64,000 nucleotides of DNA from Fibrobacter sp. UWB4 (GCF_002210345.1 NZ_MWQI01000001.1:62001-126000); one strand, 5' to 3'; positions 2,294 through 46,333 are shown, numbered from the stretch's first letter. Notes: generated by a model from the letters alone, not told the origin. Made by a program: numbers and translations.

Positions 2294-2333
2294 GTATTTT
2301 AAATCCATAACATTAAAAAAGGGGTAAAAAACG

Positions 2334-3638: not shown

Positions 3639-3745
3639 TATTTTTTCTTGTTGATAAGTTGAGGATATATTACAAAAAAATTACATCTTACGTGCAAAAA
3701 GTCTTCCAAAATGGACTAGGATTTATTATACTTGTAGTGAGGCTG

Positions 3746-6178: not shown

Positions 6179-6181
6179 ATG

Positions 6182-6301: not shown

Positions 6302-6337
6302 GTAAACAAATAAAGTTTTTATTAAGGAGTGCAAAAA

Positions 6338-6484: not shown

Positions 6485-6485
6485 G

Positions 6486-15069: not shown

Positions 15070-15097
15070 GCCCGATTTAATCGGGCATCTCCTTTAT
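15064..15097. repeat. Dispersed palindrome TGTCATGCCCG...CGGGCATCtCC
   Basis: GATGCCCGAT-TA-ATCGGGCAT-type inverted repeat overlapping the recD2 start codon. The same layout recurs at 56865-56903 and 60200-60234, with a variant at 20277-20304. Confidence 0.65.
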
Positions 15098-15142
15098 TTG
15101 TTGAGGCTTGTTTATGCATTGATTGTGTCTTGCAGCGCTTGC

Positions 15143-28460: not shown

Positions 28461-29957
28461 ATGAATACATCTCGTCAGACAAAAATACGTAGTATTGTTG
28501 TACTCGTTGTGGCCGCTATATTTTTGGAATTGACCACGGCTGTGCAGTACATTTCTACACGCCGAGCCATTACCGCCCAAATTAAGGAAATGGCTAAGCA
28601 AGACCTTACTTCTGCGAACCGGACCTTTGAAGTCAAGGAAATTGCTGAGGCTGCTATTGCGGCTGTTCTGCCCGAAGTTGAACGCTTTATCGATACACAA
28701 CAGCAAGATTCATTGCATATGGCGTTGCAACGAGTGGTTGCGAACCATCCTGAAATTGTCGGCGTCGATTTTGCCTATCGCGTGGGGAGTGATGGCCTTC
28801 GCGATGGATACTTTACTTTTAAAGATGATGCAACCAACGAAATTAAGGACACCGTTATTGGGTTTGATTATACGGAACGCACTTGGTACCGCGAGGGCTT
28901 GCATGGCAACGGTTCCTGGAGCGAACCGTACATGAGCCGCTATTACGTGGCGCTGATGTCTACATTCTCGCGACCAGTCCACGATCCTCAAGGACGTGTC
29001 GTTGCCGTTATTGGCGCCGATGTCCCGATGCGCGAACTCTCTTCGATGGCAGTGCAGTTGTACGATAACCAGCAACGCTCGCTTATTCCGGTCATAATCT
29101 TCCAGCTGATTGGACTTGTGGTGCTTGGCTTTATCATGTATCGTAGCATTCTCAGCGTTCGTAAGCTGAGCAAAGTCAGTGCCGAAAAAGATCTGATTAA
29201 TAGGGAACTTGGGATTGCAAACGCAATCCAGACCGCAATGTTGCCGCCCCCGATGCCCGAAAGTCAATCCCTGGATATCATCGGAAGTCAAGTCCCGGCA
29301 AAACAAGTGGGTGGCGATTTTTATGATTATTTTGTGCGTGATGGAAAGCTATTCTTCAATGTCGGTGACGTCTGCGGCAAGGGAATCCCGGCGGCACTTG
29401 TCATGTCGATGACGCAGGCCGTGTTCCGCACGATTGCAACTAAAGTCGATGATCCATCTCACATTGTGATGGGAATGAACACGATGGCCAGTCGTGGAAA
29501 TACGACAGGAATGTTTGCAACGCTTTTTGTTGGTGTGCTAGACCTTGCAACGGGGCGCCTGAGCTACTGCAATGCCGGCCATGAAAAGCCCATTATCATT
29601 ACTGGACGTAATATGCGATATCTCGATGTTACCGCAAATATCCCTATTGGGGTCATGGAAGAAAAAAAATACAATATCCAGGAATCGGTCATCGCTGCGG
29701 GCGATATGATTTTGCTTTATACGGATGGCCTTACCGAAGCGATGAATGCAGGCGCAGAACTGTTTGGCTTAAAGCGAGTCGAAAGCGCAATTTGTGGCGA
29801 CGGTGGAATGAATGCTGATGACAAAAATCGCGAGTTACCTGCGTTTGCGGGACCGCAGCAATTGCTGGATACCATGTCGCATGTAGTGTCCGAGTTTGTG
29901 AATGGCGCAGAGCAGAGCGACGACCTTACCATGCTTGTGATAAAGTACAAAGGGTAA
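28461..29957 (+). CDS. Membrane sensor with SpoIIE/RsbU-type PP2C phosphatase
   Basis: A 498-aa protein. A membrane segment (about 11-28) is followed by an extracytoplasmic dCACHE-like sensor domain with WYREGLHGNGSWSEPYMS and AVIGADVPMREL, then a second membrane segment (about 212-230). The C-terminal half is a PP2C-type phosphatase: QVGGDFYDYF, GDVCGKGIPAALVMS, FVGVLDL, YCNAGHEKP, LYTDGLTEAMN and SDDLTMLVI carry the metal-binding Asp residues. It should dephosphorylate an anti-sigma-factor antagonist in response to an external signal. No partner genes are adjacent. Confidence 0.92.
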   Translation: MNTSRQTKIRSIVVLVVAAIFLELTTAVQYISTRRAITAQIKEMAKQDLTSANRTFEVKEIAEAAIAAVLPEVERFIDTQQQDSLHMALQRVVANHPEIVGVDFAYRVGSDGLRDGYFTFKDDATNEIKDTVIGFDYTERTWYREGLHGNGSWSEPYMSRYYVALMSTFSRPVHDPQGRVVAVIGADVPMRELSSMAVQLYDNQQRSLIPVIIFQLIGLVVLGFIMYRSILSVRKLSKVSAEKDLINRELGIANAIQTAMLPPPMPESQSLDIIGSQVPAKQVGGDFYDYFVRDGKLFFNVGDVCGKGIPAALVMSMTQAVFRTIATKVDDPSHIVMGMNTMASRGNTTGMFATLFVGVLDLATGRLSYCNAGHEKPIIITGRNMRYLDVTANIPIGVMEEKKYNIQESVIAAGDMILLYTDGLTEAMNAGAELFGLKRVESAICGDGGMNADDKNRELPAFAGPQQLLDTMSHVVSEFVNGAEQSDDLTMLVIKYKG

Positions 29958-29984
29958 GGTAGGGCGTATTTTAATCTTTAAGAT

Positions 29985-30191
29985 CTAGTGTAATTTGTTA
30001 TTGGTCTTGGTTTTGTTTGAGATTATTTCTTTTGCGAAATATTCTGGTTTTTTCTTATCTTCAGAGTAATTGTCTAAACCTTGAAGTAGTTTGTCAAGTT
30101 CTTTTTCACAGACTTTGCCGTGAAATCCTTTTGCATCGGCGATTATATTGCCGTTTTCATCTATTTCTATTTCAACATTAAATTCTTTCAT
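29985..30191 (-). CDS. Small DUF2997-like protein
   Basis: A 68-aa acidic protein, last gene of the seven-gene operon. NVEIEIDENGNIIADAKGFHG and the following KVCEKELDKLL resemble the DUF2997 family, known to me from cyanobacterial and other bacterial clusters with Ycf35/DUF1257 and Ycf46 relatives. It overlaps the radical SAM gene by 14 bp. The radical SAM protein ends in a segment of similar sequence (VEIDIDNDGDI). It may be a substrate or adaptor for that enzyme; this is inference. Confidence 0.65.
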   Translation of the reverse strand: MKEFNVEIEIDENGNIIADAKGFHGKVCEKELDKLLQGLDNYSEDKKKPEYFAKEIISNKTKTNNKLH

Positions 30192-30738
30192 TTTGGATAT
30201 CCTTGATATCGTTGATTAGTTCTTCTGTAGGGAATCCATTTATGTTGATATCCCCGTCGTTGTCTATATCTATTTCAACATCGGTGTTGTTGAATTTCCA
30301 GGAATCGTTTCCTTGTGGATTATGCCATACTTTTTGATTGTTGTTTGGCTTGGTTTTGTCAAAACGACCATAAACAAGTGTGTCAACTAAATTTAAAAGC
30401 TTGATTTGCTTTGGCTGTTTTATCTCCTCTAGCTCAAACCCTGTGAATATGTGAATTGTTAATTTTGTATGTTCTTTTATAGCTGCTGCTAGTTTAGAAA
30501 GCTCTTCTGCTTGTAAAAATGGTTCGCCCCCGCTAAAGGTTACTCCATCTAAAGAAGAATCCTTGATGATCATAGACAATAATTCTTGAACACTATAATA
30601 TTTATTTTCATCAAAAGACCATGTGTCGGGATTTCCGCATCCTTTACAATGAAAGCCGCATCCTTGAACCCATAAAACGAAACGCTTGCCAGTCCCATTG
30701 ACGTAGCTTCCTGCTTCTATATGGTTTACATTAATCAT
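30178..30738 (-). CDS. NrdG-like radical SAM protein with DUF2997-like tail
   Basis: A 186-aa protein of the glycyl-radical-activase type. The [4Fe-4S] ligands are Cys27, Cys31 and Cys34 in CGFHCKGC; VTFSGGEPFLQ binds SAM. Unlike the nrdG of this window it has no reductase or other glycyl-radical enzyme beside it. Residues about 152-182 (DVEIDIDNDGDI then TEELINDI) resemble the small protein encoded next, so the enzyme seems to carry a fused copy of it. It overlaps the upstream gene by one base. The substrate is unknown. Confidence 0.85.
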   Translation of the reverse strand: MINVNHIEAGSYVNGTGKRFVLWVQGCGFHCKGCGNPDTWSFDENKYYSVQELLSMIIKDSSLDGVTFSGGEPFLQAEELSKLAAAIKEHTKLTIHIFTGFELEEIKQPKQIKLLNLVDTLVYGRFDKTKPNNNQKVWHNPQGNDSWKFNNTDVEIDIDNDGDININGFPTEELINDIKDIQNERI

Positions 30739-31295
30739 TATAATTCTCTTAGCTGAAGGATGAGCTTTATCTTGTTGTTTTCAACAATTTTCTTTTTTAC
30801 GATATATCCTTTTTTTATTGCGTTTTCTGTAATTCGATCAAGTCTATTTTGACAATACTTTTGTTTTTGCTCTTTGATTTTATCTTCTTCTTCTTTTTGT
30901 TTTGCAATTTTTTGTTGTATGTTTGAACTTTCCTGATGATTTTGCTGTTGTTTATTTTCTATTTCGGCAAGTTGGCGTAGTATTTCTTGCTGATTCCTTG
31001 TAATTCTTTTTTCTTCTTCTAGCTTACGACGTTCTTCTTCTAGTTTCTTTTTTTCTTCTTCTATACGTTTACGTTCTTCTTCTAGTCTACGCTGCTTTTC
31101 GCTTAGTTTTTGACGGTATTCATTTTCAATTTCTTTAAGTTGTGCGTTATTTGAATTGTTAATAAAGTCGTCATATGCTTGAATAGAAAAATGGTTGTTT
31201 TCTATTTTTATGGATGGATATTTTTTAAGTATTTCGTTGGCGACTTGAAAGTCGGTGATGAATACTTGTCCGAATATGGTTCTTTTAAGACTCAT
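30738..31295 (-). CDS. Coiled-coil protein with Ycf35/DUF1257-like C-terminus
   Basis: A 185-aa protein. The N-terminal 45 residues are globular (FGQVFITDFQVANEILKKYP). Residues about 55-145 are one long Glu/Lys/Arg/Gln coiled coil. The end, NRLDRITENAIKKGYIVKKK then NKIKLILQL, resembles the C-terminus of Ycf35/DUF1257 proteins, in which an A-x-x-x-G-[YF]-x-V helix is followed by a KLVV-type strand. It starts one base after the upstream stop. Its place beside Ycf46-like and DUF2997-like genes supports this weak similarity. Confidence 0.6.
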   Translation of the reverse strand: MSLKRTIFGQVFITDFQVANEILKKYPSIKIENNHFSIQAYDDFINNSNNAQLKEIENEYRQKLSEKQRRLEEERKRIEEEKKKLEEERRKLEEEKRITRNQQEILRQLAEIENKQQQNHQESSNIQQKIAKQKEEEDKIKEQKQKYCQNRLDRITENAIKKGYIVKKKIVENNKIKLILQLREL

Positions 31296-31296
31296 T

Positions 31297-33276
31297 TTAA
31301 GCTCCTGCTACAACCTTGTAATCTTTTCCTATATATCTATTTTTTAATTCATTTGCTTTTTCTAGATCATTATAATCCGTTATTTCTAAGTAGAAAGAAT
31401 CCTTTGTTTCGTAAAGGGTTCCGACTTCCGGTAAAATAAATGAAGGCTTTTTTAATCCTGCAAAGGCGTTCTTTAAACTGCGTTCTCGATTTTGTGCTTC
31501 ATCAAAATCAAACCTTTGCTGTTCTTTTTTTTGAATTTCTTCATTTAGATTCCTTATGTCAGCCTCTAATCGTTGTTTATTCTTGTTTTCAGTCAATAAA
31601 TCGGACTCTATTTTTCTCTTTTCAGACTTGTTGGAATTTTTTGGATAGTAATCCTTTAATTCTTCTTTTAGACGATTCAGTTCTTTTTGGCTTTCCTCTA
31701 AATCAAAAGAATCGTTATCTTCTTCTTTATCTTCGGATGATTCTTTATGACTGTTTTTTTCTATCTCGTTTTCTATTTCCTGTATCTTGCTTTGAATTTG
31801 CTTTTTTTCATTATCATCTTGTTTCTTGGGTTTATAATCTACAAGTTTATCTTCCAATTCTTTAATTTTTTCATCTGTTTTTGGAATTTGATTAGTTTTA
31901 TCTTTAATTGTTTCTTTGTTTTCATTGATTTCATCTTTGTTTTTTTCGTTGAAAATAAGTTCGCTTACACCGACTTTAAGATCTATTAAAATTTGGACCC
32001 AATTGTTCTCTTTACTCTGATCCCATTTGCTGAGATAGTCTTCTAATTCACTCATTGATAATTGATTGAAAATTATGTTTTTTTCTTTTTCAATTTCGCT
32101 TTTTGTCTCATTTATCTTTTTCTTCAATCCCGGGGCATTTTTTAAAACATCCTTTTCTAAGAGATCTTCAAGTTCTTTAAGCATTCGCTTAATATTTTGG
32201 TTTTTATGGTCTTGGTCTAGTCGCTCAAAATCTTTATATATTTTTGCCTTTTCTGCATTCTTTGGTTTTTGTGGAGGGTTGACGGTATATTTGAATACCG
32301 TTTCTAGTGCATAAGGTTCGGGAATGAGCTCGTTGCTTGGTGGCTCCGTATTTTCCATATCTTCAATTCTATCCACAGTGAGTGGCAATTTTACATCTTT
32401 AGAAATGGAATCTAATTTTGTTATCTGCTCCCAGCGATTGTTGTCAAAATCAATAAATGTTTTTGGGGTATCTTTCAATGTTCCCTGTTTTTCTTCCCAA
32501 ACGTTTGTCGGTGCCTTGAATACGCCTTTTTCAAAGATGAAATTTCCAATTTTCCAGAATTGATTGTCTTCATAAACAGGAGCTTTTACCCGATCTGAAA
32601 GGAATACCTCAAAAGTGCTATTTTCTTTCTGGTCCTCTATTATTGTGCTTTTGAATTGGTTGTTTATGGGGTAAAATCCCCGTAAAGGTAGGAATGCTTG
32701 CGGAATAGAATCCGTTGTATTAAGTTTATCTTTGGCGATAACCGGAATAGAAAATGGAGCCTCTTTGCACGGAGCTATTTTCCCAAGAAGATGTTCTTTC
32801 GCATCAGCATCATTATTCCAAAAAAAGTATGTAAACCAATAGAATAAATCTTGCATATGTTCGTTTTTCATTATGAAACATTTATTGCTTTCAATATCTG
32901 TCAAGGAATTAATGAAAAAGAATGCAAGTTTGTTGTCTATAATTATAAAATTATTCTCTAATTTGGCATTACTTCGAATAAGTGCAGGATTCTTTGCGTC
33001 AAACCAAGCTATGGATTCGGAACATTTTTTCATATCTTGGAATAATCCGTAAATTCGGACTCTTTTGCTTGCGGCTTTAAGCAAATTTTCACAAATAGAC
33101 TTGTTGATGTTGGATGTCGATGCGATGCAGATTTTTTCGGATGCGTTGTCAATTTCTTCTTTTAACTGGTCTAGAACATTTTCGACCGCAGAATTCTTTT
33201 TACAAGAGAAATAGTGAAGTTGTTTTCCGGAATTATCAATGTGTTTTTCTTTATGTAAAGGCGAAATTTTTGACAT
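31297..33276 (-). CDS. Long coiled-coil protein with degenerate PLD-like N-terminus
   Basis: A 659-aa protein. The first 140 residues look like a phospholipase-D-fold half: helix SAVENVLDQLKEEI, strand KICIAST, RVRIYGLF, and ENNFIIIDNKLAFFFINS where an HxKx4D motif would be. Here the positions read E-N-N-x4-D, so the catalytic His and Lys are lost. The region from about 320 to 610 is coiled coil rich in Lys, Glu and Asn. I start at the ATG at 33276, which has GGAG nine bases upstream and lies two bases after the preceding stop. It may be a structural partner of the active PLD-like protein. Confidence 0.6.
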   Translation of the reverse strand: MSKISPLHKEKHIDNSGKQLHYFSCKKNSAVENVLDQLKEEIDNASEKICIASTSNINKSICENLLKAASKRVRIYGLFQDMKKCSESIAWFDAKNPALIRSNAKLENNFIIIDNKLAFFFINSLTDIESNKCFIMKNEHMQDLFYWFTYFFWNNDADAKEHLLGKIAPCKEAPFSIPVIAKDKLNTTDSIPQAFLPLRGFYPINNQFKSTIIEDQKENSTFEVFLSDRVKAPVYEDNQFWKIGNFIFEKGVFKAPTNVWEEKQGTLKDTPKTFIDFDNNRWEQITKLDSISKDVKLPLTVDRIEDMENTEPPSNELIPEPYALETVFKYTVNPPQKPKNAEKAKIYKDFERLDQDHKNQNIKRMLKELEDLLEKDVLKNAPGLKKKINETKSEIEKEKNIIFNQLSMSELEDYLSKWDQSKENNWVQILIDLKVGVSELIFNEKNKDEINENKETIKDKTNQIPKTDEKIKELEDKLVDYKPKKQDDNEKKQIQSKIQEIENEIEKNSHKESSEDKEEDNDSFDLEESQKELNRLKEELKDYYPKNSNKSEKRKIESDLLTENKNKQRLEADIRNLNEEIQKKEQQRFDFDEAQNRERSLKNAFAGLKKPSFILPEVGTLYETKDSFYLEITDYNDLEKANELKNRYIGKDYKVVAGA

Positions 33277-33278
33277 AG

Positions 33279-34808
33279 TTAATGGCTCCATTTGACGATT
33301 TCTGCGGGAAGGTTTTCAGGTTCAATCCTATTGATGTTGATTTGCTGTTTGATTTCAATATGGTCTTTGCGAATCCAAATTTCATTGGGGCTAACGCCTA
33401 CGGTAAATATCTTTTCGTCAATAAACCAATAACGGTCATGAGGAATTTCCTTTTTACCGTGCAAGTCAAATTTGACATTATATTTTTCCTTGAAATAGTC
33501 AATATACTTCCTTTGTTTTTCCTCGTAATATTTCTCATCTCTCTGTGAAACGATTACAATCTCTTCGGGGGTGGAGTCCATTTGACTGAATAATTCTCCT
33601 AATGCTCGTAGGGAATAGTAATTATTTGCATAAGGGTCGATGATTGTAATTCTTTTTGCTGAATATAACTCTATCCATTTATCCAAAATATCGTCCTTTA
33701 TTTGACCGTTATCCGTTTTAGGAATGCTTATGGAGCCTGAGTCTATATTCCGCTTGGTTTTTGTTAATGGTTGCGAATAGGGATTTAAATCTGTTGCTGC
33801 TTGCAAAAGCCAATATTCTTCCTGCTTCGGCAGGTATCGCTCTATCAATTTTTCGTAATCAAATGGCTTGATTTTTTTCTTGTACTCATCTCTTTGGAGG
33901 TATTCTTTATCTCTTAAGATTTCATCCCACTTAAATTTCAAGTCTTCTTGAGAAAGGTATCCTTCAACTTTCAAAGTGGTGTTAAATATTTCGTTATACC
34001 AAAGGTTTACCTCATTTTCTTGTGGCAGTACATTGACATTTTTATATTCTGCGTCAAATTTTCCCCAATCTGTGTCAATTTGTTCCCTAAAAGACGTGTT
34101 GAAATCTAAGAGGGCATTTTTGTATTTCGATTTATCCTTGGCTTTTTCTAGAGGCAGTTTTAAATAGTAATTTGAGTTTTCCTCTATGAGTTCTTCATTG
34201 AATAGCTGATGATACGCTAATTGCTTTTCTCTAGGGATGCGAAATGAATTGTCCGATATTTGTAAATTCCATTCGTCGTTGTTTACGTCAATATTAATTG
34301 CCATGTTTTCTTCATCATGGGCTTCGCGTATTAGGGTAGGTGAATCTATTTTAAATATGGAACAAACAGGCTTTTCTGCAACTAAATCTTTCGATCTGTT
34401 CAAACTACTGAGAAATTCTTTTGGCGAAATATGAAAAGAGGTGTTTGTTGTATGTTCTTCTTGTATGCTCCTATCCATTCGAATCGGTAAAAAGTTATAG
34501 GGTAAATCTCTTATATTTCCGTCAAATATAAAAGTTAGGAAATACTCGCCATATTCTCCTATTAGCGGTTCCTTGGAAATAGCTCCTTCATTATCAATGA
34601 TTTTTTGCTTTCTTAGTGTTTTGCAAAATTCATTGATTGCAGTCTCCTTGATTCCTTCTTTTAAGAGAAGTTCTTTCAGTTCGTATTCGCTATTGGTGTT
34701 TTTGAAGATGTTTTTATATACTTCAAATTTGTTCTCGTCTCGATAAGCGACTTCTCCAAGAAATCGGATTTTCTCTGTATTTATATTTTGTTTCAATACA
34801 ATTTGCAT
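33279..34808 (-). CDS. PLD-like phosphodiesterase-fold protein with HxRx4D motif
   Basis: A 509-aa protein. The N-terminal 350 residues match no family I know. The C-terminal 130 residues have a PLD-like pattern: WIELYSAKRITIIDPYANNYY, EEIVIVSQRD, and HDRYWFID at about 454-461, which fits HxKx4D with Arg for Lys, followed by FTVGVS where a GSxN strand is expected. One such half-site per chain implies a dimer, as in bacterial PLD nucleases such as Nuc. Nuclease activity is likely but not certain. It starts four bases after the helicase stop. Confidence 0.65.
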   Translation of the reverse strand: MQIVLKQNINTEKIRFLGEVAYRDENKFEVYKNIFKNTNSEYELKELLLKEGIKETAINEFCKTLRKQKIIDNEGAISKEPLIGEYGEYFLTFIFDGNIRDLPYNFLPIRMDRSIQEEHTTNTSFHISPKEFLSSLNRSKDLVAEKPVCSIFKIDSPTLIREAHDEENMAINIDVNNDEWNLQISDNSFRIPREKQLAYHQLFNEELIEENSNYYLKLPLEKAKDKSKYKNALLDFNTSFREQIDTDWGKFDAEYKNVNVLPQENEVNLWYNEIFNTTLKVEGYLSQEDLKFKWDEILRDKEYLQRDEYKKKIKPFDYEKLIERYLPKQEEYWLLQAATDLNPYSQPLTKTKRNIDSGSISIPKTDNGQIKDDILDKWIELYSAKRITIIDPYANNYYSLRALGELFSQMDSTPEEIVIVSQRDEKYYEEKQRKYIDYFKEKYNVKFDLHGKKEIPHDRYWFIDEKIFTVGVSPNEIWIRKDHIEIKQQININRIEPENLPAEIVKWSH

Positions 34809-34812
34809 AATA

Positions 34813-37800
34813 TTACCTGTTTATATTGAAAGGGGTGCTTGACTTTGCCAAATCTTGAAGTTCTTCAGAAAAATGCTGTCTTGCGAAGAGATTTTTATCT
34901 CCGACAATTACGCGTTGATATTTTGCTCTTGTCAAAGCTACATTCATTCGGTTTGTGTTGTCCATAAAACCAATACCCTTGTTTCGACACATGCTGATAA
35001 ATACAACATCAGCTTCTCGTCCTTGAAATTTATCTACGGTGTATAGCTGGATTTCTACATTATCTTTTTTGAAATGTGAAAAATTGTTTGGTTGGTTTGT
35101 ATATTGTTGTAACATTTCTCGAAGTAATCCTTCTTGAGGACGATAATAGGATAATATAGCGACTGTCCACCCGTCTTTTTTATTATCTGGTTTATTGCCT
35201 GGAATTTTTGCCCATTGAATGAAATGGTCCAATTCATCTTTGATAACATTTTTTTCTGTGTAGTTTTTATTCACTTTTTCATTTTTTCGTTCAATTATTG
35301 CGTTGCGTTTGACGTCAAGCCACACGGCTCGTGATGGGTATCGGGCGTAGCTCCATTCTCGGTTGATTTCTTCACCGTCTTTTAACTCTGCAATGCCTCT
35401 TGTTGCACCATAAAAGTGTTCTCGCGAAAATTTTGAAATATCGGGATGCATTCGATGTTGGTAATCAAGTCTTTCGAATCTTTGTGCAAAAGTACTTTCT
35501 TGAAAACCGTTTTTAAAGCCGGAGGTTAAAGTTGTCTTATATTTTTGACTTTCTTGATTTCCTTTTTGCAGTAATTCAAGAATAGAAGGGAAAAAGATAT
35601 GTTCAACAATATCAATTGTATCTCTTGTTTTATCATCATTTTCTGGGATGAGCTTATCTAGATCTTTTTCGTAATTAGATTCTTTGAGGTTCCTTCGTTC
35701 AAATTTACGAACTAGCCTCCAAGAAACTTTTTCAACCCATGACTGAGAAATGAATTTGTTTAAATCTTTGAGATCCTGAGTACGATTGTCACGTTCTTTT
35801 CCGTCAAGGAGACTTTTCCTTCGAGAAAATGCTTCATTGGAATAATTAACTGTTTGTAGAGATGCGATGTTGAAAGATTCAGGAATATAGTTGATGACGC
35901 TTTTGAGTAAACCTGGTTCTATAATAACCAAATCTTTTAAGTACAAATCTAACCATGATATTTCTTTGTCAGAATCATAGTTAAAAGGAGTGTTGTTTTT
36001 TATGTAAGCGATTTTTGAGGGAATTGCTTTAAATTTTTCTGTATTGTAGTTTTTAAAATCCTTTACTGAACAGTTTGGAGGAAGTTCTATGGCTAAAGGA
36101 TATAGTTTACATTCAGGATTGGCGAAACCCTTCTTTTTTGAATTGTTTAAAGAATCCAGTGCTTCTATCAAGGCACATAATGATTGCGTTTTCTCATCAA
36201 TGCTTCTCGTTAGATGGGATTTTAAATATTCATTTTCCGTATAAGGGGATAGCTGCTGAATATCTCCAATAATTATCCATTTTTTAGCGAATAATGCAGG
36301 AACTAGAAACTCTTGAAAAGTTGTTTTACTAGCTTCATCAATAATCATTACATCGTATATTGGCTGCGTAATTTTGTCATCGTCTTGTTTGCGCCTAAAA
36401 TCAGGATGATTTTGGATGCCCATTGTTGTTCCGCATACGAGATTTGAAGAATCAAGAAGAAACCTTTCTGCGCAATCCTTTTCAAATCCTTTTTCTTTGA
36501 GTTCTTCAACTTTGTTGTCAAGGAGAAATTCCTTGACTGATTCTCCAATTGAACTCTCTCGGCCAATTCGTAGTGGGGTCACTTCAGAATATTCTCTGAT
36601 TTTTTCAAGGATATTGTCTATGGCAACGTGGGTGGATGCTGTTAATAGGATCCTTTTGCCTTCTTTAACAAGTTGAAGAATTAGTTCAAGAATGGCTGTT
36701 GTTTTTCCACTACCAGGAGGCCCCTCTAATAGCATGAAATCTTTTGCGCCCAAGGCCTTTTCTACAAAGCTGCGTTGTGCTTCGGTGCCTTGATATGAGG
36801 GATTATTCAGGACAAACCATTCTTCTATTTTATGGATGTCGTTTGTAGGCCAAGAACAACGTTCTTTATCTTCAAATAGCTTTATGAGATTGCGCTGCTC
36901 TTTTACTGGGGCTTCTGAAAGCGTGTTGATTGCATCTCTTTGGCGATAAAGATTGTTTAAGTCAACAACCATTTTTATTGGAAAATTGGGATTCAGTCTT
37001 TCACCGGTTTTGGATTCTTTTTCCACGTATAGTTGATGATCGTCTGCTTTTATTCTTAAGACCTTAAAAGCGTTTGCTTTATTCTCTTGATAAACTTCTT
37101 TCAGCATTTCATTTTCTACAAAATAATCACAGGGCGATTTTTCTCCTTCTTCTATATTGGCGTCATCAAGTAATTGTATTATTACTCTATTGCGTCCCTT
37201 TTTGCTGTTGTTGTATGGCTTTAATTTATAGACTGTACCATTTTCATCTTTAACATCTGTTGATATAGGATTTTCGTCGGAAAAATATTCATCATCTTCT
37301 TTTTGAAAATCCCAAGCCTTGTTGTTACTTATGTAGTATAATTTTTCGGGCTTTGGCTTGATTGGGGTTATAGAAAAAGATTTATGTCCGATAGCAATGC
37401 TTTCTTTTGTAGAAATAAAGGGCTGTTGCGGCTCTAGTTCAAAGTCGATACAGATTTCATCTTCTTTTATAATATTACGAATGGTATAGGTTATCCCGTT
37501 TTGAAGGATTTTTGTTCCTTTGATAATATTGGTATTGGAATATATGTATTCAATGGAGTTGTTGTTTAGTGTTATTGTTTCATTGGGGTTGAAATTTTTT
37601 ATGGCTTCGTTCCATTTAGGTGCATTTTTGATAGCGATAATTTTTTTAGCATCCTTGGACAATTCGACATCATCTTTTGTAAAAGTAACCATGATATCGC
37701 TAGTTTCAAAAATGATTCGATTCTTTCCCTCTTTCAGTTCTATCCCTTCTATGTTTAGATAAAGTTCTGGAGTTATTTGTGCTTTTAGGATAGAATAACG

Positions 37801-38112
37801 GGGATAGACCCAATTAACTGTATATGTGTCATGACTTTTTAGTATTTTAAAATTGCATTCATAATCAGTTTTTTTTCTTTCTGCTTCAATAGAGTTTTTT
37901 ATAAAATCTCTATAGGGTTTTAAAGAAGATCTTGTTGCGTTGAATATGGCGTCACGCTTTCCTGCAAGCTTTTCAATGTTTGAAATTTCACTCCTAACAA
38001 GAGCACTGAAATAGAACTCGGCTTTAAGTTTTTGGAATAGACTAAGAACGGTATCATTCTTAGTCTTGTTGGATTGTGAATTATTACGTGGATGAAAAAA
38101 ACTGGACGACAT
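34813..38112 (-). CDS. SF1 helicase of the Upf1/Dna2 type
   Basis: A 1099-aa helicase. The first 440 residues are an accessory region with beta-rich segments. Walker A is EGPPGSGKTTAIL (about 459-471), followed by LLTASTHVAIDNIL (motif Ia), MIIDEASKTT (Walker B), GDIQQLSPY (motif III), LDYQHRMHPDIS (IV), TVDKFQGREADVV (V) and NVALTRAK (VI), the order typical of Upf1-like SF1B enzymes (COG1112 type). It should unwind or translocate on RNA or DNA. It follows the AAA ATPase gene by 15 bp. Confidence 0.92.
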   Translation of the reverse strand: MSSSFFHPRNNSQSNKTKNDTVLSLFQKLKAEFYFSALVRSEISNIEKLAGKRDAIFNATRSSLKPYRDFIKNSIEAERKKTDYECNFKILKSHDTYTVNWVYPRYSILKAQITPELYLNIEGIELKEGKNRIIFETSDIMVTFTKDDVELSKDAKKIIAIKNAPKWNEAIKNFNPNETITLNNNSIEYIYSNTNIIKGTKILQNGITYTIRNIIKEDEICIDFELEPQQPFISTKESIAIGHKSFSITPIKPKPEKLYYISNNKAWDFQKEDDEYFSDENPISTDVKDENGTVYKLKPYNNSKKGRNRVIIQLLDDANIEEGEKSPCDYFVENEMLKEVYQENKANAFKVLRIKADDHQLYVEKESKTGERLNPNFPIKMVVDLNNLYRQRDAINTLSEAPVKEQRNLIKLFEDKERCSWPTNDIHKIEEWFVLNNPSYQGTEAQRSFVEKALGAKDFMLLEGPPGSGKTTAILELILQLVKEGKRILLTASTHVAIDNILEKIREYSEVTPLRIGRESSIGESVKEFLLDNKVEELKEKGFEKDCAERFLLDSSNLVCGTTMGIQNHPDFRRKQDDDKITQPIYDVMIIDEASKTTFQEFLVPALFAKKWIIIGDIQQLSPYTENEYLKSHLTRSIDEKTQSLCALIEALDSLNNSKKKGFANPECKLYPLAIELPPNCSVKDFKNYNTEKFKAIPSKIAYIKNNTPFNYDSDKEISWLDLYLKDLVIIEPGLLKSVINYIPESFNIASLQTVNYSNEAFSRRKSLLDGKERDNRTQDLKDLNKFISQSWVEKVSWRLVRKFERRNLKESNYEKDLDKLIPENDDKTRDTIDIVEHIFFPSILELLQKGNQESQKYKTTLTSGFKNGFQESTFAQRFERLDYQHRMHPDISKFSREHFYGATRGIAELKDGEEINREWSYARYPSRAVWLDVKRNAIIERKNEKVNKNYTEKNVIKDELDHFIQWAKIPGNKPDNKKDGWTVAILSYYRPQEGLLREMLQQYTNQPNNFSHFKKDNVEIQLYTVDKFQGREADVVFISMCRNKGIGFMDNTNRMNVALTRAKYQRVIVGDKNLFARQHFSEELQDLAKSSTPFNINR

Positions 38113-38127
38113 AGGCTTATGAATGTT

Positions 38128-39690
38128 TTATGCGAAAATATTGTGTCTTTCTTGAATGAGCTTGGGTGTCTTTTCGTCAGCGTCTATCTCTTCGGTATTC
38201 GCTTCTGAAGCGAGCTTTGCGCGTGCCTTTGCCCATTGACGTAGTTTGATGATTGATTCTTGCATGGTTTTAGATAGAGGCCATGTTTCTTGGATTGCTT
38301 TTAAGATGTCGTTTTGTTCAGGTTCTCTTCCGTCATTATATGCCGTAAATAGAGCCTCATTAACGGCTTCTTCAATTTCTGCGCCTGAAAAACCTTTCGC
38401 TTTTTGGGCTAGTTCTGCTAAGTCAAAATTGTTTGGATCGCGGCGTTTATTTCTGATATGTATTTCAAAAATCGTTTTTCTCTCTTTTTCTGTTGGAAGA
38501 TCAACAAAGAAGATTTCGTCAAAGCGTCCTTTTCGAAGCAGTTCAGCGGGAATTTTTTCAATGTTATTGGCGGTTGCTATAACGAAAACTTCATTCTTCT
38601 TTTCTTGCATCCAAGTGAGCAAAGTTCCAAAAACTCGGGAGCTAGTACCACTATCGCCATTGCTTCCAATGCCACTTAAACCTTTTTCTATTTCATCTAT
38701 CCAAAGGATTGACGGTGCAATCGTTTCCGCGAGAGAAAGAGCCTTGCGGATGTTAGATTCGCTTTCGCCGACAACACCGGCAAAGACCTTCCCGAGATCA
38801 AACTTGAGTAATGGAAAATTCCATTCGTTGGCAATTGTTTTTGCTGTTAGGCTTTTACCGCAACCGGGAATACCTAGCAGAAGAACGCCTTTAGGCGTTG
38901 GCAATCCGTAATCTTTGGCGTCTTTGCTAAATGCGTTTCCACGATTTTGAAGCCATGTTTTTAACTTTTCAAGACCTCCAATGCTGTCTAGGCTAGAGTC
39001 TGGATGGAAGTATTCAAGAATGCCGCTTTTCTTTATGATGGCTTCTTTAGCAGCGACAATTTGATTAATTTCTGTTTTAAGGATTCTGCCTTTACTTGCA
39101 ATGATTTTTCTATATGTCCATTCTGCTTCTGAACTACTGAGGCCGAGACTTGCATTTATTATTTCGTCATAGTCGGATGACATGCTGCGAGGCTTGTTGT
39201 CATAGGGGAGATCTTCTGTTATGGAGTCAAAGATCTTTCTTAGAACATCTTTATTGGGGAGTGGTAACTCTAGAATGGGAACCTCTTTTTCGAGGTCCTT
39301 TGTTGTTGAATAAGAAAGGGTCTGGATAATGAGGGTTTTGTGTGTATCTGGATTGACTCTGATACATTCGCGAATGCGGCGCAAGATTAGTGCATCTTCA
39401 AGATTGGGGTGGAAATCTTCAAGCAAAAGAATCAAATTTGTTTGCTCTGAATTTTTAAACCAATCAAGTATTTCTGCTGGATCCACTTCATTGTCTGGCT
39501 CACTAAACCTACCTGAAGCTGAATCCCATTCTTTTTTTCCTTGGGTGGAACTCCAAACAGCAAATGTCTTATTTTCGTCTTTTGCAGTTTTTATGCAAAT
39601 AGCCTGTAAACGCTCCCATTCGAATGTGCAAACTTGGATGACCGGCGTGTTTGCCTTTATGTTTATTTTGAATTCCTCATTAAAATCCAT
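38128..39690 (-). CDS. Ycf46-like AAA ATPase
   Basis: A 520-aa AAA protein, first gene of the operon. The N-terminal 230 residues form the inactive P-loop-like part seen in Ycf46: INIKANTPVIQVCTFEWERL, LILLLEDFHPNLED and LPLPNKDVLRKIF. The active AAA module has Walker A GIPGCGKSLTAK (about 273-284), Walker B ILWIDEIEKG, a second-region-of-homology GRFDEIFFVDLP with arginine fingers, and FSGAEIEEAV sensor 2. The ATG at 39690 has AGAAGGA in front; an ATG six codons earlier lacks that. A TATATATAT stretch at about 39738-39747 may be its promoter. Confidence 0.88.
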   Translation of the reverse strand: MDFNEEFKINIKANTPVIQVCTFEWERLQAICIKTAKDENKTFAVWSSTQGKKEWDSASGRFSEPDNEVDPAEILDWFKNSEQTNLILLLEDFHPNLEDALILRRIRECIRVNPDTHKTLIIQTLSYSTTKDLEKEVPILELPLPNKDVLRKIFDSITEDLPYDNKPRSMSSDYDEIINASLGLSSSEAEWTYRKIIASKGRILKTEINQIVAAKEAIIKKSGILEYFHPDSSLDSIGGLEKLKTWLQNRGNAFSKDAKDYGLPTPKGVLLLGIPGCGKSLTAKTIANEWNFPLLKFDLGKVFAGVVGESESNIRKALSLAETIAPSILWIDEIEKGLSGIGSNGDSGTSSRVFGTLLTWMQEKKNEVFVIATANNIEKIPAELLRKGRFDEIFFVDLPTEKERKTIFEIHIRNKRRDPNNFDLAELAQKAKGFSGAEIEEAVNEALFTAYNDGREPEQNDILKAIQETWPLSKTMQESIIKLRQWAKARAKLASEANTEEIDADEKTPKLIQERHNIFA

Positions 39691-39830
39691 AAAATTTTCC
39701 TTCTTCATAACCTGTGGGAAACGTGAATCTTTTTTTACATATATATAATTTTTTTTAACGAAATGATGCTTTTGATCAATCTTTCTACGATATGTAGATG
39801 CGTTTAGTGTTTGTTAAGAATAATGTTAAA

Positions 39831-39879
39831 AGAAAAAAGGCAAGCATAGCCTAAAAGATGTTTTATAAGGCTATGCTTG
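39831..39879 (-). terminator. Terminator of the 80-aa gene
   Basis: On the minus strand CAAGCATAGCC and GGCTATGCTTG form a perfect 11-bp stem with a 17-nt loop, followed by CCTTTTTTC. Confidence 0.85.
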
Positions 39880-39885
39880 GGGCTT

Positions 39886-40128
39886 TTAAACGTAAATCAC
39901 TCCTGTTTGAATGAGAAACGCGCGAATGTAGCGGTTGTATTCTCTCCGCATCATCGCGTATGCGTAATTGTCACTTGGTGTACTTGATATGACTAAAGTC
40001 TTGAAACCTCCTTTGGCAATGTGCTTGAGTGATGGATGATTTTTTCCCTGTTCGTAGACCCAGCGCTTCGTGCTGATGAGTCTGTTACAGAAATCGTTGA
40101 TACGTTTGTCTTTGGAAATGTGTTCCAT
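39886..40128 (-). CDS. Small basic protein of unknown function
   Basis: An 80-aa protein with start MEHISKDKR, supported by AGAGG five bases before the ATG; the frame extends 23 codons upstream without a good start. It is basic and aromatic-rich (KRWVYEQG, YAYAMMRREYNRYIRAF). It has its own terminator and lies just upstream of the seven-gene operon on the same strand, but is a separate unit. No family is recognised. It could be a small regulator or toxin-like protein, which cannot be settled here. Confidence 0.6.
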   Translation of the reverse strand: MEHISKDKRINDFCNRLISTKRWVYEQGKNHPSLKHIAKGGFKTLVISSTPSDNYAYAMMRREYNRYIRAFLIQTGVIYV

Positions 40129-40487
40129 AAAAACCTCTTTTTTAATGTCGCGATTGCGATGATTTAACTTTGCCGTGTGGGAGTTTCCCGCTGACATTTA
40201 CAGATGTAGAAACCCCATACGGGACAAAAGGGGACAAAAGTGGATTGCCCGTTTTGGGTAAAAACGGAATTTTAGGCTTTTGAAGCAGCGGCTTATGGTT
40301 GCTGGCAAAACCCCCGAAAACCTCCTATTAGTTCAATAGGAGTCTGCTAAAATTATCAATGGATAGCTGTCATAGAAACCTCCCTCTCAACGTCCAGCAA
40401 ATCGTTAAGAGCGCAATTGATTTCTACTGGATTTGGGTATCAGTACTATGACGATTACAATATATGATAATTTCAATAGCAAGAGAG
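40129..40487. other. Intergenic region with repeats and hairpins
   Basis: No gene is visible in this roughly 360-bp stretch. It holds the promoter area of the 80-aa gene, the tandem GGGACAAAAG decamers (40221-40240), and a perfect hairpin CTCCTATT-AGTTC-AATAGGAG (40322-40342) with no T tract. Confidence 0.6.
40221..40240. repeat. Tandem decamer GGGACAAAAG x2
   Basis: Two exact copies of GGGACAAAAG. A close relative, GGGACAATAGGGGAC, stands at 51931-51945 in the same orientation. Confidence 0.7.
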
Positions 40488-40519
40488 AACTCTAGCAAGT
40501 TCAGGTGCTTGCTAGAGTT
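40488..40519 (-). terminator. Hairpin ending the 826-aa gene
   Basis: AACTCTAGCAAG-TTCAGGTG-CTTGCTAGAGTT is a perfect 12-bp stem, 16 bp beyond the stop codon of the minus-strand gene. The T tract on that side is short (TTCTCTC). Confidence 0.75.
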
Positions 40520-40535
40520 GACTATGTGAATAGTG

Positions 40536-43016
40536 TTATTTATACAATGCGGTCAATTCAACTGCGATTTTTATCAAATATACGGCCATTTCATATTTGT
40601 ATGCGTTCCAAAAATCAGTGGAGTATTCTGCATGGCATTCTTCGACTATTTTGCTGTTTTCTGTAGTGTATTCCGGATGCCACTTCATGAGATCGGAGTT
40701 ACAATATAGAATGTTCAAGCAATCCTTTAATTTATCCTTTTGTATAGAACTAGATGCCCAAAATTTTTTTCCGAGTTCCTTAAGTTCTTTTCTATTGAGC
40801 GTTAGCTCCCCTTCATCATCAAATACGGGGTGTTGGTTGTAACTATTATTTAATACAAACGTTTCCATTTCTTCCAGGCTTTCAGCGAGTAAAATTTTGT
40901 AGTATGGATATGGTGCTATTTTCTCAAAACGTTTTCCTCTCAATGCAAACCATTGCAGGTTTAATTCGTTATGTGTGAGATCGTATAGGGCTGCGAGTAA
41001 ATCAGGGAAATTACGTGGGTCAAATAGATCTTCAACTTTTGAAAAAGCTGCATAATGTGTAGTCATATTTCTGTCAAAGTAGGCGTATTTTGCTTGAATG
41101 AGACTGCGATATTGGTTACGAAAAAATATGTTATCGCTACACAGTGTATTAACATCGGAGTCTATGAATATTTTTACAGTGAGTTCTCTGCTAAGGACGA
41201 GATTCTGAAAGGCTGGAATTTTTTGCATAAAGGATGAAACCTTGAAGCCGGAATCAATCTCGTGCAGTTTCTTTTGACGTTTTGAAATTTTGCTTTCTCC
41301 GGATAGTTCCTCTGTTTTTTCATCTTCTTTTAATTTTGTGTGTTCGGGAATACGGAGATGCTCGCTCTGTAATTCCTTTATATAGCTAATTTCGTTTACT
41401 AGCCATCGAGAATCCTGTCTTAGAAATTTTGAAAGGTTATAAACGAGCAATACCATTGATTTTGTTGTTTTATCGTTTTGCACAAAATCTTTTAGCATCT
41501 TTGTTAATTCAGTGTTTAGATTTATATTCTGTCCTAGGTGATTGTACATATTGAGAAGGGCTTTGCTATTATGCCATGTTCCTTCTTTGATCGTTTTCAT
41601 GAATGGGACTAGTGCGTGCTTCTTTTCATCATATTCTGTTTCAAATTTAGACGAAAGGTCAAACAGAATGAAAAAGAGAATCATTTGAAGTACTTCAAGA
41701 GAATTTTGTTCATAATGACGTTCTTTTACGGGTATAATACCATTCTCCATGCAATATGCATCGTTGGAATCGATAGTTTTTTCTTCTTCTAAAAATACTT
41801 CGTTGAAATCATATTCGTTCATGAAGTGAATCATCCAATATAAACAGAAAACGAGACCTGGTTTGCTTTTTAGATTGCTTAGATTTTGGCGGATGACGTT
41901 CTTGAAAAATTTTACAAAGTATGTTGAATCTGTACTGGTGGGTGGTGCAAATAAGTATCCGAAGCACCTTTGTACGATAAAGGCTTCGTCAAGGGAAATG
42001 AGATTGAAAAATCCCATTAGTTGAATCCATGAGTTAAGTTCATCATTTTTTCTGATGTTGGTATAAAAATCTCCTTCATAATTCATGTGGCAACTGCTGT
42101 GAAAAAAATGACCACTTACACCGCCCCAAGTATCAAGATCGGTTCTCCCTGGCTGTTCTTTACGGAGAAACCAGTAAAAATAATCAGTCAGATAGTTGTT
42201 GACATTGGAGAATAGTTCTTCTTTGTTGTCTATGAATGCAGCGAATGAGGCCAGGGTGACGATTGCGTCGTATTCTTCTTTGATGGACTCATGCACTGTT
42301 GGTCGCAGTAATCCCAAATCACGTTGTTTTAACAATAAATACAATGCATAGGCAAAGTGCTTATCTTCGCATTCACCTGTCCCAATAAAATCCTTGAGAG
42401 CCTTTAGATGACCATCGAGCCAAGCTGTTTTTTCAAATGGCGTTTCTTTGGCGAATTCTGGATCGCATTTTTTTTGGTCATAATCTACATCTGGATCAAA
42501 TTTTTTAACGGCGGCTTTGGCTTGCGCAATCCATTCGTTATGACGCTGTTCGCGTTTCTTACATTCTTCTTTGTCAAAAAGTTGTTTGTAGTATTCCTGA
42601 TATGCCTCTTCTTCGGTCAGCTTTTTCTTCGGGTCTTTTTTCTGCTCCTCCAAAGGCGCTTGGGCATATTGCCAATAAATCCAGTCGTCGCTAAATGGAA
42701 CGTTGTTTTTTTTCAATATTTTAAAGAGTTTGCATAGCGTTGTCTTGAGCCAGTTTCTTTCTTCCGACAAGTTGTTTAACTGAAGTTCTGTATATATGTG
42801 GCACAGAAAGAAATAGGCTGAATAATCCCAGAATACATTTACTGCGTCGCCGACTGTTTTTATGTTGATTTTCGTAGCTTTCAGAATTTGAACAGTTTCT
42901 TTTACGTATTCGTCAAGTTTATCAATGTTTCCGCAAGGTCCCCAAATGACCTTGTCTTCCATTGCTGTTGAATATGAATTTGTCATTTTCCAAATGATTT
43001 CGGAGATGTCGTACAT
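40536..43016 (-). CDS. Large cytoplasmic protein of unknown function
   Basis: An 826-aa protein with no signal peptide or clear membrane segment. I recognise no domain. It is rich in Phe, Tyr, Trp, Leu and Lys, mostly helical by eye, with charged stretches at about 150-200 (KKDPKKKLTEEEAYQEYY) and 570-600. The start at 43016 (MYDISEIIWKM) has AAAGGG six bases upstream; a GTG 28 codons earlier is less likely. Base composition is AT-rich like the neighbouring operon. A small ORF and a palindrome stand in front of it. Confidence 0.7.
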   Translation of the reverse strand: MYDISEIIWKMTNSYSTAMEDKVIWGPCGNIDKLDEYVKETVQILKATKINIKTVGDAVNVFWDYSAYFFLCHIYTELQLNNLSEERNWLKTTLCKLFKILKKNNVPFSDDWIYWQYAQAPLEEQKKDPKKKLTEEEAYQEYYKQLFDKEECKKREQRHNEWIAQAKAAVKKFDPDVDYDQKKCDPEFAKETPFEKTAWLDGHLKALKDFIGTGECEDKHFAYALYLLLKQRDLGLLRPTVHESIKEEYDAIVTLASFAAFIDNKEELFSNVNNYLTDYFYWFLRKEQPGRTDLDTWGGVSGHFFHSSCHMNYEGDFYTNIRKNDELNSWIQLMGFFNLISLDEAFIVQRCFGYLFAPPTSTDSTYFVKFFKNVIRQNLSNLKSKPGLVFCLYWMIHFMNEYDFNEVFLEEEKTIDSNDAYCMENGIIPVKERHYEQNSLEVLQMILFFILFDLSSKFETEYDEKKHALVPFMKTIKEGTWHNSKALLNMYNHLGQNINLNTELTKMLKDFVQNDKTTKSMVLLVYNLSKFLRQDSRWLVNEISYIKELQSEHLRIPEHTKLKEDEKTEELSGESKISKRQKKLHEIDSGFKVSSFMQKIPAFQNLVLSRELTVKIFIDSDVNTLCSDNIFFRNQYRSLIQAKYAYFDRNMTTHYAAFSKVEDLFDPRNFPDLLAALYDLTHNELNLQWFALRGKRFEKIAPYPYYKILLAESLEEMETFVLNNSYNQHPVFDDEGELTLNRKELKELGKKFWASSSIQKDKLKDCLNILYCNSDLMKWHPEYTTENSKIVEECHAEYSTDFWNAYKYEMAVYLIKIAVELTALYK

Positions 43017-43065
43017 GATTTTCCCTTTATATTCATCGTTTAACCATAGACTTACACTCGTAAAT

Positions 43066-43161
43066 CTATCCTTTTTGTGTGGGGAGCGTTGAATAAACAC
43101 AAATAACTACATCACAAATGTGATATAGCTCCGTTAAGGTTTTGCTTGAAATTTTGTCCAT
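43066..43161 (-). CDS. Possible 31-aa small protein upstream of the 826-aa gene
   Basis: ATG at 43161 has AAGGAG six bases upstream, the best ribosome site in this region. It opens a 31-codon frame reading MDKISSKTLTELYHICDV and on to STLPTQKG. It ends 49 bp before the start of the large gene, in a different frame. It could be a small protein or a leader peptide that controls translation of the next gene. Its shortness makes it uncertain. Confidence 0.4.
   Translation of the reverse strand: MDKISSKTLTELYHICDVVICVYSTLPTQKG
43111..43124. promoter_or_regulatory. Palindrome ATCACA-AA-TGTGAT
   Basis: A perfect 6-2-6 inverted repeat inside the small ORF and upstream of the 826-aa gene. It could bind a dimeric regulator or form a small hairpin. 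The order TCACA..TGTGA is the reverse of a CRP site, so I do not call it CRP. Confidence 0.35.
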
Positions 43162-43397
43162 TCTGAACTCCTTGTCAAAAAAAATTACGCATACACGACT
43201 TAGAGTTTCAAAGAATGTACCATGAATATACAAACAAAAAGCTAAAGTGTCAAGTAATCTTTCTAAATAAGCCTTTTTTCTGTTTCCTGATCAAAAATAC
43301 GGCATAAAGCGTGACGGATTTGATTCCGTTCTTAAAAAATGCCAAAAATGAGGCTTGTATTTTTTTATATTGCACCTCCGTCTAACGAAAGGAATAC

Positions 43398-43886
43398 ATG
43401 ACCGACAAAGTTCTGCAATGGCGAAATCTGCGAAACGAACTTGACGATTTGCTTAAAGCTCGTAACATGAAGTACGCCGAAGCGGTCAAGGAATACTATA
43501 GAGAAAATCCTAAAGACGCTAGCGAAAAGAAGTCCTCTAGCAAAAAGTTCAGCGTAAAAAGCGATTACGATGAATTTTCTTATGACAATTGCGTCGAGAA
43601 AAAATATTGGAAGAAGCGACCGAAAAATGAAACGGCGTCCGAGCTTTTGAAAGACCGACCGGCCCCTAATAGGCTTGAGCCCGCAATAGCTTTCCTTGAA
43701 AAATTGAAGCTGTTTTTAGCGGCGAAAGATTGCCAAAAACCGGAACAGTGGATTTCTGAAAAGTTTGGTCAGGATTTTTTGAACAGCTTCAGAAAAGAAG
43801 TAATTGAACCCATTAAACAAGAAAAGGAGAATCAGCTCTTTTCCGGGATAAAAGATAAAAACGGAAAGGATGAATTTGATTTTTAG
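43398..43886 (+). CDS. Charged cytoplasmic protein of unknown function
   Basis: A 162-aa hydrophilic protein with a Ser/Lys-rich region around residues 43-55 and no recognised domain. AAAGGA stands six bases before ATG, and TATATT at 43376-43381 is a fair -10 box, leaving a leader of only about ten bases. The gene ends three bases before the following lipoprotein gene, so the two form an operon. It contains a Cys in AAKDCQKPEQW. Confidence 0.65.
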   Translation: MTDKVLQWRNLRNELDDLLKARNMKYAEAVKEYYRENPKDASEKKSSSKKFSVKSDYDEFSYDNCVEKKYWKKRPKNETASELLKDRPAPNRLEPAIAFLEKLKLFLAAKDCQKPEQWISEKFGQDFLNSFRKEVIEPIKQEKENQLFSGIKDKNGKDEFDF

Positions 43887-43889
43887 ATT

Positions 43890-44561
43890 ATGAAAAAATT
43901 ATTGTTAATTTGTTTTATCTTGGTTGTAGCCTTGCTCACCTCTTGCGACTATCAAAAGAGAGAATGCGTTGTTAGTGCCTCTCGATGCCTGACGGAAGAA
44001 GCGTATCGAGATTCGCTTTACAAGGGCTGGAAAGCTCCGGTTAACAAGGATTCCTTGGTGGATTCTCTTTTTGCGATATTGCGCGAACAGCGTCAAATGT
44101 TGCTTGACATGAATGTTGTGCCGAAAACTGAATTGTCGGACCCTGCGAAAAAGCCGGTTGTCGAAATTCAGCCTGTCGTTGAAAAGCCTAATGTCGCTCC
44201 GATTATTGAAAATATAGAGGAACCCGTGGGTGAGGAAAACGCCAATAGCGTTTCAAATGTGTCTGCCGAAAATGCTGGAAGTCAGCCTGAAGAGCGTAAG
44301 TGGGGTAAGCTTGTGACTGGAGCCGGAGCTGCTATAGTCGGAGCCGCTGTTGGTGCTGCTGTTGTGGATAAATTGCACTGCAATGAACGCTTGGACATAA
44401 CGGTTGAGTACAAGTTGATGGTGGCTTGCCTTAATAGCTGTGGTTATGATGAAGAAACTCTTGAAAAATGCGGTGCTGGCATAATGCAGTGGCTTTGCAA
44501 GGAAAAAGAAAAAGCCGAAACGATTATGAATCGTGTTCGGACTTCTTGCTCAATTAGATAA
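43890..44561 (+). CDS. Lipoprotein with glycine-zipper segment
   Basis: A 223-aa lipoprotein with lipobox LLTSC (about residues 15-19). Middle residues are Pro/Glu/Val-rich. A glycine-zipper-like hydrophobic stretch, TGAGAAIVGAAVGAAVVDKL, is at about 152-171 and could insert in a membrane. Six or so cysteines lie in the C-terminal part (CNERL, CLNSCGYDEETLEKCGAG, LCKEKEK), which could form disulphides. It follows the 162-aa gene by three bases. The function is unknown. Confidence 0.68.
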   Translation: MKKLLLICFILVVALLTSCDYQKRECVVSASRCLTEEAYRDSLYKGWKAPVNKDSLVDSLFAILREQRQMLLDMNVVPKTELSDPAKKPVVEIQPVVEKPNVAPIIENIEEPVGEENANSVSNVSAENAGSQPEERKWGKLVTGAGAAIVGAAVGAAVVDKLHCNERLDITVEYKLMVACLNSCGYDEETLEKCGAGIMQWLCKEKEKAETIMNRVRTSCSIR

Positions 44562-44567
44562 AGTTAT

Positions 44568-46226: not shown

Positions 46227-46333
46227 GATGTACTCCTTTTTTTTTATTAAACTAGCACATTCCATGTGGCTAAAACCAACGAACAAAAGCCTAATATGGA
46301 TAAATGTTTTTTACGAATAAAAGGAAACGATGT

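Follow-up and report, generated by a model that had tools for sequence, protein, structure and literature searches.

The window analysed here, a stretch of 64,000 nucleotides from Fibrobacter sp. UWB4 (GCF_002210345.1, NZ_MWQI01000001.1:62001-126000), carries on its minus strand, at positions 29985-39708, a block of seven intact open reading frames (ORFs) which encode, in this order, a Ycf46-type AAA+ ATPase, an Upf1-like helicase, two phospholipase D (PLD)-like proteins (PLD1 and PLD2), a DUF1257-like protein, a radical SAM protein and a DUF2997 protein (Table 1). A first-pass annotation, made from the sequence alone, had described the block as a transferred operon whose genes overlap or are separated by no more than 15 bp and which is more AT-rich than its surroundings. 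Both points of layout are borne out by the ORF spacings (in order, +15, +4, -13, +1, -1 and -14 nt) and by a GC fraction of 0.349, as compared with 0.485 upstream and 0.460 downstream. The operon is the lowest-GC 9.7-kb stretch within the window, the AT-rich part extending beyond it to ~44 kb. The AAA start given in that annotation, an internal ATG at 39690, likewise suits the orthologues better than 39708. Scans of the operon for promoters and terminators gave results no better than those for shuffles.

PLD1 is present in three of the 168 genomes of the phylum, namely the window's own, Fibrobacter sp. UBA1765 (G165) and Fibrobacterales RGIG9731 (G062), and each of the three contains all seven genes in identical order, with protein identities of 36-77% in the latter two. 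A contig search with PLD1 returned just these two Fibrobacterota relatives. The same gene set was also found in other lineages. A DUF2997 search of 392 broader genomes led to G266, the only member of another phylum in the collection, in which a 7.3-kb contig ending inside the helicase gene carries six of the seven genes (helicase, PLD1, PLD2, DUF2997, DUF1257-like and radical SAM). A high-GC IMG/VR contig (L077, with the near copy L076), reached by scanning viral contigs, encodes AAA, helicase, PLD1, PLD2, DUF2997, DUF1257 and radical SAM proteins next to a gene read as a serine recombinase; no match to a terminase was found in the L077 record. The last four genes occur at the edge of a further contig (L082), found with the radical SAM protein. 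Outside Fibrobacterota, the DUF2997 gene stands ahead of the DUF1257 gene. Identical order at such protein divergence, together with retention of the set outside the phylum, shows that the arrangement exceeds chance.

The operon is part of an island whose two flanking genes are ~75 bp apart in the related genome G044 (locus L060), which thus displays the empty site, with blastn breakpoints at window positions 29959 and 44568. At this hotspot or in its near neighbourhood, relatives carry different cargo: G001 has an AbiLi/AriA-like ATPase, G043 a type IIG restriction enzyme, G013 and G046 genes read as kinase, PP2C and vWA together with MkoA-like helicases, and G037 the four-gene sister arrangement described below. 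Horizontal transfer of the operon, as proposed by the first-pass annotation, is well supported by its presence in so few genomes rather than at a core-genome location in all Fibrobacter, by the empty site, by the deviant GC and by the occurrence outside the phylum. A HicA-like gene of the island (window 39886-40197; PADLOC 5.2e-11) is repeatedly found next to different cargos in the Fibrobacter hotspot (L057, L067 and, twice, L061), and window positions 40536-43100 encode an 854-aa protein without a Pfam match. In L007, a full-length relative of the latter lies ahead of the operon (1253-3751), and one that covers just the C-terminal part lies after it (14920-15510).

The predicted Upf1-like helicase, AAA ATPase and radical SAM protein can be assigned securely, and their catalytic motifs are invariant among orthologues. 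The AAA protein, which is of the classical AAA type, shares 38-44% identity over its full length with AAA proteins of plasmids and genomes, most of them encoded beside DUF1257/DUF2997 genes; its family presumably includes the cyanobacterial Ycf46 itself. Relatives of the helicase in the PDB are DNA2, SMUBP-2, UPF1 and SEN1. When plasmids were searched with the helicase by tblastn, three matches scored 331-400 bits, versus at most 165 bits among the other matches listed, and at each of these three loci the helicase is accompanied by a ~370-aa protein, a PLD protein bearing two HKD motifs and an AAA protein which the annotation calls sigma-54 interacting. This sister arrangement is carried by plasmids of Vibrio rumoiensis, V. 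aerogenes and Pontibrevibacter as well as by Fibrobacter G037 and G015. In a phylogenetic tree, the helicases of both operon types fall into a single clade (100/100), separate from MkoA, from TerY-P-linked helicases and from other Upf1-like ones, while those of the window type alone are weakly grouped (66/49).

The sister arrangement offers the closest point of comparison. Its fourth gene was classified by PADLOC as RtcR_PspF1 CARF_AAA_HTH in the two cases tested, while the winged helix-turn-helix (wHTH) reading of its ~370-aa protein is based on sequence appearance and a weak model. One sister unit is separated by ~2 kb from the cas2/cas1 genes of a CRISPR locus of type III-B, and another by ~9 kb from dnd genes. 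We found no name for the arrangement as a system. It shares with the window operon the helicase clade, homologues of the N-terminal part of PLD1 and of PLD2, the core gene order, the hotspot and the presence of defence neighbours. Sequence comparisons show the helicase-PLD1-PLD2 core to be homologous gene by gene to the sister arrangement. The latter differs in having a CARF regulator, two intact HxKx4D motifs and no long charged helices in its PLD protein, and it is devoid of the AAA, DUF1257, radical SAM and DUF2997 genes, all four of which the window operon possesses. Conversely, no RtcR_PspF1-type CARF-AAA-HTH gene is present in the window operon. G266 has, in convergent orientation to its window-type operon, a fragment of a gene from the RtcR_PspF1 CARF family (E 1.1e-10), and contig C17 ends with the N-terminal part of a CARF gene of this family; the two parts may belong to one gene. 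A further helicase locus was noted on the IMG/VR contig L078 (8285-16716), where one operon encodes an MkoA-like helicase, a 454-aa protein, a PLD protein and two Card1/CARF-like proteins.

That the operon encodes two PLD-like proteins, as stated in the first-pass annotation, stands with regard to family, the canonical HKD motif having been lost. PLD1 gives weak Pfam matches to MIT_C and PLDc_2, and the C-terminal part of its structural model resembles the PLD-like fold of MITD1 (Foldseek, E 7e-5), model confidence being fair and mainly so in that domain. Compared with the ~370-aa sister protein, PLD1 aligned over nearly the whole sister length (hhalign 96.4%, E 1e-9; reversed control, 0.3%); the match had been weak (21.6%) before the L077 sequence was added. 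An HxRx4D motif is found in the C-terminal domain of PLD1 in four of five window-type proteins. PLD2 passes the PLD-like TrmB family PF11495 (25.2 bits versus a cut-off of 22.2) and matches the sister PLD with its two HKD motifs (hhalign 97.2%, E 3.5e-11; reversed control, 0.1%). The predicted structure of PLD2 had no significant fold match, its PLD part being of low confidence. A motif scan revealed HxKx4D in none of five window-type PLD2 proteins, whereas two such motifs are present in each of five sister PLDs. The HxR-type domain of PLD1 would then be the sole remaining candidate for a PLD active site.

The Ycf35-like assignment of the fifth gene is supported by way of its counterpart in L077 but not for the window protein alone, which fails Pfam DUF1257 and whose direct resemblance to the family is weak and confined to the C-terminal 30-40 residues. 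The L077 protein encoded at the corresponding position of the operon passes DUF1257 (29.3 versus 22.2), and the L051 and L077 proteins together match the family with hhalign at 94.8%. We treat the fifth gene product as a relative of DUF1257 that has diverged, a charged helix having presumably replaced most of the globular part. Long charged helices, as called by a simple composition rule made for this analysis rather than by a coiled-coil predictor, are present in 6/6 window-type DUF1257-type proteins (49-132 aa) and 6/6 PLD2 proteins (longest run, 41-87 aa), as compared with 1/14 other DUF1257 proteins (37 aa) and none longer than 31 aa in five sister PLDs. Their joint occurrence hints more strongly than any other observation that the added module may touch the core.

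The radical SAM protein falls short of the NrdG model (TIGR02491, 117.6 versus a cut-off of 126.1) and is not paired with NrdD, the genome's own housekeeping NrdD-NrdG being encoded separately, at window positions 3848-7046. It is not a prokaryotic viperin either (NF038283, 19 bits versus 180). The housekeeping NrdD is itself split, comprising a 776-aa protein without the glycyl-radical end and a separate 51-aa ORF which supplies that end (6329-6484, RITGYLVGTIDRFNNAKRAEVNDRVKHG) immediately ahead of nrdG; the same split is found in G044 and G001, and no Rfam match was obtained at the split. The 68-aa product of the last gene matches DUF2997 with hhalign at 97.9%, and the second G and the C of its core are invariant. 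Within the last 50 residues of the radical SAM protein, the short stretch VEIDIDNDGDININGF is similar to the start of DUF2997, a likeness that is statistically weak; as a candidate second DUF2997-like domain, these 50 residues reached just 27-38% in hhalign.

Table 1. Features of the seven-gene operon and its island (positions counted in the window)
Feature	Position	Strand	Remarks
Gene 1, Ycf46-type AAA+ ATPase, 526 aa	38128..39708	-	PF00004, 114.8 bits; likely true start 39690
Gene 1, Walker A GIPGCGKS	~38851-38874	-	
Gene 2, Upf1-like SF1 helicase, 1099 aa	34813..38112	-	Motifs intact; AAA_11/AAA_12 Pfam matches
Gene 2, Walker A GPPGSGKT	~36700-36723	-	
Gene 3, PLD1, 509 aa	33279..34808	-	N-terminal part homologous to the sister wHTH-type protein; C-terminal MITD1-type PLD-like domain
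PLD1, motif HDRYWFID, aa 457-464	~33417-33440	-	Motif scan
Gene 4, PLD2, 664 aa	31297..33291	-	PLD-like domain without HxKx4D, then long charged helical (coiled-coil-like) part
Gene 5, DUF1257/Ycf35-related protein, 185 aa	30738..31295	-	Via L077 counterpart passing DUF1257
Gene 5, charged helix, aa 46-169	~30789-31160	-	
Gene 6, NrdG-like radical SAM protein, 186 aa	30178..30738	-	Fer4_12, 119.8 bits; GGEP motif
Gene 6, CX3CX2C	~30637-30660	-	Cys motif invariant in five orthologues
Gene 7, DUF2997 protein, 68 aa	29985..30191	-	G-x-x-G-x-x-C core; PF11211, 25.1 versus cut-off 24.1
Island holding the operon	29960-44567 (14.6 kb)	.	Between a SpoIIE/PP2C-type gene (28461-29957) and the gene at 44568-46286

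Parts of the added module are also found elsewhere. Plasmids of cyanobacteria, Bacillus and Paenarthrobacter encode full-length relatives of the AAA protein next to DUF2997 and, wherever the annotation names one, a DUF1257 protein; some of these AAA/DUF2997 loci also include small radical SAM-type iron-sulfur proteins. On the Treponema succinifaciens plasmid pTRESU01 (L034, 11333-13488), a 4Fe-4S/radical SAM gene and an AAA gene whose product is 45% identical to that of the window sit as a pair inside a VgrG/baseplate contractile-injection locus, and AAA-like, DUF2997 and radical SAM genes are consecutive on a 172-kb IMG/VR contig classed as viral (L087, 7710-10555). To our knowledge, relatives of ycf35 and ycf46 are conserved in plastids and cyanobacteria and have no known biochemical role. 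Within the literature searched, no link to defence was found in titles, abstracts and passages on DUF1257 or DUF2997, nor in the titles and abstracts of that on Ycf35 and Ycf46.

Taken together, we consider it probable that the operon is a mobile defence-type system, representing an undescribed version of the Upf1-helicase/PLD kind in which the Ycf46/DUF1257/DUF2997/radical SAM set serves as a sensing or activation module. Of the earlier proposal of a transferred nucleic-acid-processing system, perhaps directed against phages, the transfer is upheld and the defence role is suggested by context, namely by the defence-type cargo of the hotspot in relatives and by the proximity of the sister arrangement to CRISPR III-B and Dnd loci. 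The module occupies the place of the CARF protein of the sister arrangement, which suggests a role in sensing or activation; yet G266 may have both together. Several observations weigh against a defence system of this kind. Searches of the phage and plasmid collections with PLD1 found no match, and few independent instances of the operon are known. Catalysis by a PLD mechanism in the window type is doubtful because no HxK is present. Moreover, other DUF1257/DUF2997 pairs reside in ordinary-looking chromosomal settings, and DUF2997 and ycf35 are clustered with the ferredoxin gene fed7 in cyanobacteria (PMC4284462), so that the module is not defence-specific. As for the plasmid collection, it yielded no match to PLD2 either.

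We infer antiphage activity and, for the mechanism, envisage the following. The helicase would load on and translocate along RNA or single-stranded DNA of the invader, which PLD1 and PLD2, beside the helicase, might bind or cut. The Ycf46/DUF1257/DUF2997/radical SAM set would gate this core: the radical SAM protein may modify or load DUF2997, with its conserved G-x-x-G-x-x-C, rather than act as activase of the housekeeping ribonucleotide reductase, while remodelling of the complex could fall to an AAA ring with DUF1257. The charged helices of PLD2 and of the DUF1257 protein would be the likely bridge between the two halves. It is tempting, if distinctly speculative, to go further and to propose a class of immune systems where CARF second-messenger sensing is replaced, as the means of switching on an Upf1-helicase/PLD machine, by a Ycf46 AAA ring together with DUF1257 and a DUF2997 modified by the radical SAM protein. 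The infection switch would then consist in radical chemistry on a small protein, and the plastid and cyanobacterial ycf46-ycf35-DUF2997 genes would be its housekeeping relative; we regard this extended proposal as doubtful. The interleaving of ycf35 and ycf46 relatives with a mobile helicase/PLD operon, where the sister arrangement has CARF instead, suggests a switch or sensor, and the operon offers a small expressible system in which the role of these relatives could be probed.

Alternatively, the operon may be a mobile stress or RNA-quality-control system, engaged for example in the repair or decay of damaged RNA and not aimed at phages. This would fit a helicase of the UPF1/SEN1/DNA2 type and the ordinary chromosomal settings of DUF1257/DUF2997 loci, as well as the control of RNA repair by RtcR, the namesake of the CARF relatives (PMC9650030 and PMC7790460). 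The defence-type hotspot cargo in relatives, the CRISPR and Dnd neighbours of the sister arrangement and the patchy presence of the operon make it unlikely, however. A further explanation is that the operon comprises two units which merely share one transcript, namely a helicase/PLD defence core and, independent of and unrelated to it, a Ycf46/DUF1257/DUF2997/radical SAM set. Indeed, the core stands with CARF and without the module in the sister arrangement, and parts of the module occur alone on plasmids and chromosomes. Such independence sits less well with the interleaving of the two halves in Fibrobacterota and in L077, where the helicase gene has the AAA gene upstream of it and the three remaining module genes come downstream of PLD2, with the restriction of charged helices in PLD2 and the DUF1257 protein to the window type, and with the overlaps between genes; we hold it to be quite improbable.

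Among described defence systems, Mokosh and CoCoNuT come closest to the proposed defence-type operon. Mokosh likewise combines an Upf1-like helicase with a PLD protein, and the helicase matches an MkoA profile (290.7 bits). The parallel drawn with Mokosh in the first-pass annotation amounts to an analogy, however: none of the seven proteins contains a kinase domain, such as is fused to the helicase in type I MkoA; PLD1 and PLD2 gave hhalign values of 0.9% and 0.2% against two MkoB-type proteins; and the helicase groups with the sister arrangement (100/100), outside the group of two MkoA proteins. In CoCoNuTs, CnuH-CnuE pairs an Upf1-like helicase with a downstream wHTH protein that has a nuclease-type domain, and association with RtcR-type CARF is frequent (PMC11090510). 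The order of helicase and wHTH-type effector is similar in the operon, PLD1 being likened to the effector via the ~370-aa sister protein, which may be of the wHTH type. CoCoNuTs are defined by a McrB-type GTPase (PMC11090510); the operon has no gene for such a GTPase or for McrC, nor do its proteins contain an McrC domain. With neither kinase nor MkoB relation nor McrB/McrC gene, and with a helicase outside the MkoA group, membership of either family is most improbable, in spite of the profile match and the resemblance to the CoCoNuT pairing of helicase and wHTH-nuclease protein. The name PLuB appears in an NCBIfam model for a related helicase, and no paper on it was found. As stated in the first-pass annotation, no described system of this exact content came to light: the combination of helicase/PLD with Ycf46, DUF1257, DUF2997 and radical SAM proteins was not found in the literature searched, in which few subscription papers and preprints were covered, so that this is no proof. 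With the cyanobacterial DUF2997-ycf35-fed7 cluster and the plasmid AAA/DUF1257/DUF2997 loci, the operon shares DUF2997 together with DUF1257, often also an AAA protein of its own family and in some cases an iron-sulfur protein, where the operon has radical SAM and cyanobacteria have a ferredoxin. In contrast to the operon, these loci contain no helicase or PLD gene, and their DUF1257 protein has no long charged helix. While a helicase accompanied by a wHTH/nuclease protein is a theme already known from CoCoNuT, the joining of a helicase/PLD core to the Ycf46/DUF1257/DUF2997/radical SAM set appears, within the literature searched, to be new.

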